Shown here: positions 17,612-45,736 of the stretch, piece by piece | Numbering within the stretch: position 1 is the stretch's first letter | How the letters are laid out: each line of letters starts with the position of its first letter | Origin: a virus | IMG/VR virus record: IMGVR_UViG_3300049215_000771 | Coordinates: 186,001-250,000 of that record | DNA length: 64,000 nt | Direction: 5' to 3' (one strand) | Position numbers and translations under genes: made by a program | Notes under the pieces: generated by a model | The model's input: only the letters and a program-made list of their open reading frames with translations | What the model was told of the DNA's origin: nothing | Databases searched by the model: none

Positions 17612-18208
17612 ATGCTCCAGCAACTTCATGATGCGCTCGTCCGGCTTCCGGCCATGCTCGATGACCGTGCCCGCTGGGATAGCCTCATCATCAACCGCCG
17701 TAAGCCATTCACTTACCGGGTGTTCACCCAACTCGAAGAAGGCTTCCGGCTGTGCCTGCACAAATTCGACCCCTGCTTCACCCAGGAGGCGTTTTTCCAC
17801 CCCCACCCCTGGCCCGGTGCTTTCGTGCTGCTCCAGGGCGCTTACAAAATGAAAGTGGGATATTCCAAAGACGACACCGGCCAGCGACAGCATCGGCTCG
17901 CTAAACCCGATGAAGTCATGGAAATGGTCCTGAATCGCCACTCCATGTACGAGATCATCAACCCACTTACCTGGCATAGCGTCATTCCCCTGGAAACCAG
18001 CTACACAGTCATGCTCAACGGCTGGCCCTTCCCGCCCGAACACGCCCATGCCGAAGTCCGTACAACCAAAGGCAAAGACCTGGACAAAATGCCCGAAGAA
18101 GAACTCCTCGACCACCTGAGAACCTTCAAGAAACTCGTCCATGACTACATCACCACCTACGGCGCAACCCGCCAGTGGGCGCATCATGGGCATACCCTGG
18201 AGGAATAA
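17612..18208 (+). CDS. Cupin-like protein, 198 aa
   Basis: FHPHPWPGAFVLLQGAYKMK at about 65-84 and YEIINPLTWHSVIPLETSYT at about 120-140 look like the two cupin metal motifs (paired His in the first, His in the second). Cupins of this kind resemble small dioxygenase-like proteins; substrate unknown. Clear promoter and AAGGAGG site make the start secure. Confidence 0.65.
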   Translation: MLQQLHDALVRLPAMLDDRARWDSLIINRRKPFTYRVFTQLEEGFRLCLHKFDPCFTQEAFFHPHPWPGAFVLLQGAYKMKVGYSKDDTGQRQHRLAKPDEVMEMVLNRHSMYEIINPLTWHSVIPLETSYTVMLNGWPFPPEHAHAEVRTTKGKDLDKMPEEELLDHLRTFKKLVHDYITTYGATRQWAHHGHTLEE

Positions 18209-26721: not shown

Positions 26722-26871
26722 AAATTGAATTGACGTAAGGGTGTAGCCAGCCTTCATTTACGTCGAGGCCACCCCAGGCTAGAAAATTCTGAAAGTATTT
26801 GGAGGAAATGGTGAAAAAATTGCGAGCCTGGGGCGTAGGGAGGGGCTTGTAGGAGGAGTTTGGAGAGATTT

Positions 26872-26939
26872 CCAGCCGCCCCCGCCCGCCTCAGCTAGTC
26901 GTGTGGTGGCTCAGTGCTGAGGCGGGCGGGGGCGGCTGG
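26872..26939. repeat. Perfect 24-bp GC-rich inverted repeat with 20-base loop
   Basis: Arms 26872-26895 and 26916-26939 are exact complements, starting CCAGCCGCCCCCGCCCG. No T tract follows, so it is not a classical terminator. It sits at the skew switch. Confidence 0.9.
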
Positions 26940-27012
26940 CGATATGGAGGAGTGGGTTGAGCGAATTGAACATAAGCGCCATTATCGGACGTTGAGAAAT
27001 GCGCAACAAAAA

Positions 27013-37830: not shown

Positions 37831-37875
37831 TGTACAAATCTCAAAATATCACCATTAGACCATTGTACCCTAGCG
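37831..37875 (+). promoter_or_regulatory. E1 element (variant)
   Basis: TGTACAAATCTC ... TTAGACCATTGTACCCTAG. Confidence 0.55.
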
Positions 37876-38060
37876 GTTGCCTCCGCAACGCTCTAAGCCG
37901 AGAGGCGGGTAAACCTTGAAACCTGGATGCCAGTCCTGGCGGTAGGGGTGAGCGTGATTAGGCCAATTACACCCGACTGGCTTCAATGCCTGCATCGGTC
38001 CTGGCAGACTGGTGTGCCGTGGTGGTGTGGGTTCGAGTCCCACCGGAGGCTGCAATTTTC
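37876..38060 (+). ncRNA. Structured RNA with tRNA-like T arm
   Basis: GTGGGTTCGAGTCCCAC at about 38024-38042 is a perfect T arm, followed by CGGAGGC (38044-38050) and TGCA. GCCTCCG, its complement, is at 37879-37885, but 158 bases away, too far for a normal tRNA. GGCAGACTGGTGTGCC just upstream resembles a D arm. It may be a degenerate or interrupted tRNA, or another RNA that mimics one. Confidence 0.4.
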
Positions 38061-44973: not shown

Positions 44974-45015
44974 GGTACAAACTTTCAAGTTGTAGCTTTA
45001 GACCATTGTACCTTA
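44974..45015 (+). promoter_or_regulatory. E1 element
   Basis: GGTACAAACTTTCAAGTTGT, TTTAGACCATTGTACCTTAG. Confidence 0.7.
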
Positions 45016-45019
45016 GTGG

Positions 45020-45278
45020 TCGTCCGACAAACAACTCCCCCTGACGGGGGAAACGCCGAGAGTCAAGAGGGAGGGATCGAAAGTGCCCCCGCAAGGGGCC
45101 GACCCGGAATAAGCGTTGCGGAGTAACCGGATGCAGTCTGCCTGGTCCTAACGGATAATGAGTAGCTACCCCAGGCCAACGCAGTCTCGACGCAAGCGAC
45201 GAAGAAGGGCAATCCTGAAGCCTTGAACGGGCGACTAAGCCGAAAGGCAGTCAGTCACCGGCTTACAACACGGTGCGA
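45020..45278 (+). ncRNA. Structured noncoding RNA candidate, about 290 nt with its terminator
   Basis: Bounded by an E1 box and a strong terminator, with no ORF. Stems visible: CCCCCTGACGGGGG, GCCCCC/GGGGC, GCCTGG/CCAGGC enclosing TCC-TAAC-GGA and GTAGCTAC, and GCCGAAAGGC. This is a complete transcription unit for an RNA. I do not recognise RNase P, tmRNA, SRP or group I intron motifs. Confidence 0.6.
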
Positions 45279-45316
45279 CGAAGGGAGCAGGCAGGCCGCT
45301 GCTCCCTTCGTTCTTC
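45279..45316 (+). terminator. Rho-independent terminator
   Basis: CGAAGGGAGCAG/CTGCTCCCTTCG perfect 12-bp stem, then TTCTTC. Confidence 0.85.
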
Positions 45317-45328
45317 AACCCAAGGTCC

Positions 45329-45370
45329 GGTACAATCCTTCAAGTTGATGATTTAAGCCTTTGTACCCTA
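45329..45370 (+). promoter_or_regulatory. E1 element
   Basis: GGTACAATCCTTCAAGTTGA, TTTAAGCCTTTGTACCCTA. Confidence 0.7.
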
Positions 45371-45409
45371 ACGGCTGTCGCCCGACACCTTCACTCAGGA
45401 GCCTTGACC

Positions 45410-45736
45410 ATGCGTTGCGAAGACTTCCCCTGCTGCGGCCACGAACCCGGTTGCTGCCCGAACTTCGACGAGGCGGGCCGGCAGACCGACATGGTTTGCA
45501 CCTGTGGCGCTCGCCTCCCCATCACGTCTCGCTACTCCATCTGTGAGGCGTGCCTCCGGGCCGGCGACGAGGACTTCGACGAGCCGCCCTTCGACGACGA
45601 GGACTTCGACGACGAGCCGGACCCGTTCCACGGCGACGACGCCGCAGCGGACGCCGATGCCCTGGCCTCCGCTGGCTGGGGCACGGATGAGGACTACGGC
45701 GGATACGAGGACTTCGGCGACTATTGGGGCGATTGA
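45410..45736 (+). CDS. Zinc-finger-like protein with acidic tail, 108 aa
   Basis: CAGGAGCC precedes the start. Ten cysteines in the first 50 residues (CCGHEPGCCP, CTCG, CEAC) suggest a double zinc site; the rest is Asp/Glu/Gly-rich. Unknown. Confidence 0.6.
   Translation: MRCEDFPCCGHEPGCCPNFDEAGRQTDMVCTCGARLPITSRYSICEACLRAGDEDFDEPPFDDEDFDDEPDPFHGDDAAADADALASAGWGTDEDYGGYEDFGDYWGD

Follow-up and report, generated by a model that had tools for sequence, protein, structure and literature searches.

GOLLD, ROOL and OLE are large noncoding RNAs of unknown function, the first two of which are associated with phages. They are strongly structured and reach about twice or more the length of the RNA considered in this work. 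GOLLD, ROOL and OLE are reported to form homo-oligomers (PMC12286853), and in huge phages tmRNA and SmpB have been reported (Al-Shayeb et al. 2020, PMC7162821).

The window analysed here, a stretch of 64,000 nucleotides, corresponds to bases 186001-250000 of a virus contig of 532,729 bp (IMGVR_UViG_3300049215_000771), and positions refer to the window unless another source is named. For positions 45020-45316, a sequence-only reading had proposed a stand-alone noncoding RNA gene. That this unit, called the 45020 unit below, is a noncoding gene is well supported by the present analysis.

The phage and its E1/E2 island

The contig is that of a huge phage belonging to a large clade. It encodes a T4-like major capsid protein with 81.5% identity to its counterpart in LR756511.1, an uncultured phage of 595 kb, and the same capsid protein is encoded by 226 IMG/VR stretches. 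At E <= 1e-6, 234 of the contig's ORFs have a match in LR756511.1, among them some spurious reverse-frame ones; gene calls on the contig are mechanical. For the remaining pieces of the contig ARAGORN lists 56 tRNA-type genes, several of them with odd anticodons (Pyl, SeC and four-base calls). The 45020 unit is a plus-strand unit located behind an E1 element, inside the following island:

27200-47620, plus strand: island of about 20 kb, composed of cassettes with E1 or E2 leaders, about 60% GC

The island stands apart from its surroundings in GC content (about 60% in 27.2-47.6 kb against about 52%) and in third-position GC, which is about 0.8 in its genes and about 0.6-0.75 in the ORFs outside. 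Its convincing genes are all on the plus strand, and the first annotated one encodes a RuvB-like AAA ATPase. Because proteins in common with LR756511.1 are encoded both inside and outside the island, a mis-assembly of it is not obvious; assembly errors within it could be present. A long GC-rich inverted repeat was observed at 26868-26946, immediately before the left end.

The E1 element has the form GTACAAACCTTCAAGTTGATGNTTTAGNNNWTTGTACCCTAG, of which many copies retain the right part only, and it is often a dyad with the inverted core upstream. Allowing up to one mismatch, its core TTTAGNNNWTTGTACC occurs 20 times on the plus strand and never on the minus strand of the 532,729-bp contig, and all but one of these matches (19/20) are inside the island, at 27.3-47.2 kb; the reversed control pattern gave 1 and 1 match in the contig. 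The full E1 pattern had no match in the viral contigs and genome contigs scanned, and a scan of the viral contigs with the core returned just 16 single chance matches. From its position and repetition we infer that E1 is presumably a phage-specific promoter. The E2 leader has the form GTTTCCGAACCT-hairpin-AGGTCTTCCNTGCG, in which the hairpin arms vary among copies yet remain complementary (CCTTGC..GCAAGG, CCTCCG..CGGAGG), and the full E2 pattern matched in the island only.

Homologous islands in related huge phages

Judging from sequence comparison, homologous islands with the same or a related E1 core are present in LR756511.1, in G006 (IMGVR_UViG_3300034101_005859), in G029 (IMGVR_UViG_3300032334_002567) and in G028. 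The same RuvB-like gene (62%) opens the island of G029, in which 66 copies of [AT]TTGTACC[CT]TA, with the same core TTGTACCCTA, are spread over 272-322.6 kb. Homologs of the genes adjacent to the RNA (78% over 58 aa for the 45410 gene, 52% for the 43789 gene) are found towards the right end of that island, which matches their place in the window. The island of G006 also has a RuvB-like gene, together with a homolog of the window's 41.3-kb gene and about a dozen copies of TTTACRCACTTGTACTCT, frequently with an inverted copy upstream; its reverse strand (L271/L270) holds an E2-like hairpin leader 26 times (CCAAACTGCTTCGGAAAGG..GAGAAGCAAAGCCGATATATGG). In this leader an upstream CCCCTTTCC can pair with the loop GGAAAGGGG, and the arrangement may be an H-type pseudoknot. 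Similar arrays were found in LR756511.1 at about 3.6-18.7 kb, with TTTATAAAGCTGTACTWA, and in G028, with TTGTACCTACAG. Tandem GGGGAAGCTCCTGAAGCAAT units were seen in G028 immediately after the island, at about 75.5-76 kb (L297). On piece L274 (11065-11576), tandem units of about 44 nt (GAGTGAACCA-N-GATTTTACA, with variable spacers) lie between the RuvB-like gene and the next E1. The variant cores across these relatives indicate that the clade has an E1-type element in common, with TGTAC at its heart.

The islands of the relatives also contain RNA genes. One tRNA-Lys is present in that of G006, and a tRNA in that of LR756511.1. In the latter, the whole-locus scan also gave a tmRNA match of 137 nt (L158 2250-2386) with 50.4 bits, the gathering score being 47; a rescan of 350 nt produced a truncated and much weaker alignment of 15.4 bits, so that the size and completeness of this match should be treated with care. 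The island of G029 has several tRNAs and an E1-driven RNA:

320035-320164 of G029 (L295 17035-17164): E1-driven RNA of 130 nt, with a long closing stem, several inner hairpins and a folding z of -6.2

A search of this RNA against Rfam gave no credible match. Among the relatives, its covariance model matches only a near-identical twin in G027 with an identical score, and in the window it found chance-level hairpins only, the terminator region 45271-45315 scoring 9.5 bits. A group I intron match was observed in the same island of G029 (L294 10662-10849), inside an apparent interrupted tRNA gene.

Architecture of the 45020 unit

The unit and its immediate surroundings comprise the following features:

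44974-45016, plus strand: E1 element, presumed promoter of the RNA unit (GGTACAAACTTTCAAGTTGTAGCTTTAGACCATTGTACCTTAG), assigned from the repeat family, the copy listing and the contig count
45019-45028, plus strand: short leader hairpin GTCG-TC-CGAC, from direct leader comparison
45029-45277, plus strand: noncoding RNA body of about 250-260 nt, with no coding signal and no credible Rfam match
45278-45311, plus strand: presumed terminator hairpin with a perfect 13-bp stem and a loop of 8 (ACGAAGGGAGCAG / CTGCTCCCTTCGT)
45329-45371, plus strand: next E1 element, for the downstream gene, assigned from the repeat family and the copy listing
45410-45736, plus strand: downstream protein gene, sharing 78% identity across 58 aa with a gene that G029 carries in its homologous island

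The unit had been described as led by E1, and an E1 with the core of the island set is indeed located at 44974-45016, where it carries the dyad GGTACAAA ... WTTGTACC. The leader hairpin that follows is related to TGTCGCCCGACA, found after the E1 of neighbouring protein-coding units (45360, 46719 and 47226). At the other end, the terminator hairpin of the sequence-only reading is present, with a perfect stem of 13 bp (45278-45290 paired with 45299-45311) in place of the 12 bp first given. The consensus terminator scanner made no call at this hairpin because its tail (TCTTC) is T-poor. A separate E1 precedes the next gene, so that the RNA unit has a boundary on either side. The promoter-like E1 and the terminator hairpin thus appear, from their sequence, to form a real transcription cassette, and the length of about 290 nt originally proposed is about right, the product being about 295 nt if transcription begins directly behind the E1 core.

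The window contains a further unit of this kind:

37872-38060, plus strand: second E1-driven noncoding unit with a tRNA-like frame (7-bp acceptor GCCTCCG ... CGGAGGC, T-arm GTGGGTTCGAGTCCCAC)

It has a long insert between its tRNA-like ends, and neither ARAGORN nor Rfam accepted it as a tRNA or tmRNA. A perfect 12-nt complementarity (AGCGTTGCGGAG / CTCCGCAACGCT) was noted between about 45112-45123 of the 45020 RNA and 37881-37892, in the 5' part of this tRNA-like unit, which may be due to chance.

Coding potential, folding and known RNA families

The 45020 unit had been reported to contain no ORF, and our data agree, with no credible reading frame found in it. The longest plus-strand frame has 36 codons, starting from a GTG inside the leader without a ribosome-binding site. 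With a codon model trained on 30 island ORFs, the log-odds are negative in all six frames (-0.56, -0.57 and -0.66 on the plus strand; -0.63, -0.44 and -0.48 on the minus strand), whereas island genes reach about +0.1 to +0.67 in their own frame; two ORFs whose start had been placed out of frame scored best in a shifted one. The translated frames had no match among the proteins of the contig and of the relatives, apart from one at E 0.87 that is attributable to chance.

The sequence-only reading described many stems, and here it was not borne out. The whole transcript has a folding z of -1.57, with 7 of 100 shuffles folding equally well, and the two halves of the body reach +0.21 and +1.06; only 45215-45320, terminator included, stands out (z -4.5), all these z-scores ignoring pseudoknots. 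Since the body folds like shuffled sequence, the many stems are what any GC-rich sequence gives.

That the unit resembles no recognised RNA class does hold. The Rfam 15 covariance models, whose families include GOLLD, ROOL, OLE, RNase P, 6S and the group I and II introns, gave no match at the gathering threshold in the whole window. Relaxing E to 10 brought up just STnc290 (14.8 bits, on the terminator hairpin) and Rothia-sucC (13.3 bits), both far below threshold. ARAGORN found no tRNA or tmRNA in the unit at normal settings and, with the threshold halved, only mutually overlapping chance models; a search for the T-arm motif found none.

Homologs and complementarity

A blastn search of the 45020 RNA against 50,697 phage and 72,556 plasmid records gave nothing at 1e-5, with short chance pieces at E 10, and an exact 15-mer scan of viral contigs gave about 100 single chance matches. 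Scans with the flanking proteins detected no close relatives in viral contigs and genome contigs. No homolog of the RNA was found in the related contigs. Many of these are fragments, and some collections may lack records of the window's own or very close genomes, so that these negatives are not proof of absence. The model of the RNA (R1) was built from its single sequence, because there was no second sequence and the fold is unreliable, and has weak power for remote homologs. With no homolog there is no alignment or covariation, and hence nothing that points to selection acting on it. Candidate RNAs in G006 (17655-17935 of the reverse complement) and LR756511.1 (6736-6965) were considered as homologs and rejected: a GCGANNAAACGGCA-like motif is common to them and the 45020 RNA by eye, and blastn, nhmmer and the models do not support it. 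The 45020 RNA thus appears to be a lineage-specific orphan, and the E1 islands of the relatives seem to hold different noncoding RNAs.

Antisense matches of the RNA to the phage genome are not clearly above those of shuffled sequences in number or length, and the duplex energies are not special. With no excess of complementarity no target suggests itself, and antisense action inside the phage was set aside.

Alternative explanations

The main rivals of a stand-alone RNA gene are a leader of the downstream gene and a decayed protein gene. Lying directly upstream of the 45410-45736 gene and closed by a strong hairpin, the unit could be a long leader or attenuator of that gene, the 45278 hairpin being a conditional terminator. 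However, this gene is preceded by a full E1 of its own (45329-45371), its homolog in G029 (316414) has a short E1 leader only, with no such stretch, and a non-systematic look noticed no competing antiterminator pairing; we regard this explanation as unlikely. It is similarly improbable that the unit is a decayed protein gene that kept its promoter and terminator and lost its reading frame. In its favour, the island cassettes are protein-coding except for one other, and cassettes turn over rapidly among relatives, but the codon signal is absent from all frames, even piecewise, and the translated frames are unlike the proteins of the island or of the relatives.

The unit might instead be the messenger of a single tiny peptide, encoded for example by a 22-codon ATG frame at 45158 (MSSYPRPTQSRRKRRRRAILKP) or by a 9-codon GTG frame at 45083, the latter preceded by the purine-rich GAGGGAGGGA. 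This is very unlikely, given that chance alone predicts short frames in 300 nt, that a good ribosome-binding site is lacking for the 22-codon frame and that every frame of the region has negative codon log-odds. Derivation from a translation RNA (tRNA or tmRNA) or from a group I intron would have parallels in the islands of the relatives, with their tRNAs, tmRNA match and tRNA interrupted by a group I intron, and GGGCAATCCTGAAGCC at 45208 resembles a group I Q element by eye. Nevertheless, the two matches of Rfam up to E = 10 are at chance level, ARAGORN is negative at normal settings and the T-arm motif is missing, results that already largely refute such an origin and leave it scarcely credible. 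An identification as a group I intron from the Q-like string was rejected, as it had no Rfam support.

Proposed role of the 45020 RNA

We give a probability of about 0.6 to the reading that a stand-alone gene of this huge phage at 45020 yields a noncoding RNA, which would act in trans and be co-expressed with the island of about 20 kb through E1. For what appears to be an orphan RNA, this claim rests on the absent coding signal and on the cassette architecture. From the initial proposal of a stand-alone noncoding RNA gene we retain the noncoding character, the unit's own E1 and hairpin and the unrecognised class, whereas a strong structure is not supported.

In the proposed scheme, E1 would switch on the island cassettes together, the 45020 RNA among them. 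Transcription would start near 45017-45020 and end near 45311-45316, and the resulting RNA of about 295 nt would act in trans within the programme of the island genes, either through base-pairing or as the ligand of a protein from the host or the phage. These two modes of action are default guesses, each of them tentative at best. A further, rather unlikely idea is that the islands of the clade keep at least one "RNA slot" among their jointly regulated cassettes. The noncoding RNA in it would evolve fast and change from phage to phage, measuring about 295 nt in the window, 130 nt in G029, about 280 nt in G006 and about 235 nt in LR756511.1. Such RNAs might serve host takeover, for instance as ligands of ribosomes, of a defence protein or of the host RNA polymerase, and would be replaced as quickly as takeover proteins are.

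If it is transcribed, the 45020 RNA would join a small number of candidate regulatory RNAs that stand alone in a huge phage genome and belong to a defined expression programme. The E1 island, with a promoter-like core common to several related huge phages, offers a handle on gene timing and on RNA partners.

Comparison with known systems

The 45020 RNA differs from GOLLD, ROOL and OLE in that it has no Rfam match and its body is not strongly structured. With the tmRNA and tRNA genes of huge phages, the 45020 unit, as a candidate, has in common that it is a phage-encoded noncoding RNA gene; unlike them, it offers the programs no acceptable acceptor stem, T-arm or tag frame. The 130-nt RNA of G029 (z -6.2) is shorter than the 45020 RNA (about 295 nt, z -1.57) and has no hairpin terminator of the 45020 type, and the two show no similarity in sequence or by covariance model. 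They are nevertheless alike in arrangement: each is apparently a noncoding cassette of its own that follows the E1 core TTGTACCCTA and sits close to the right end of its island, and the two islands are homologous and open with the same RuvB-like gene.
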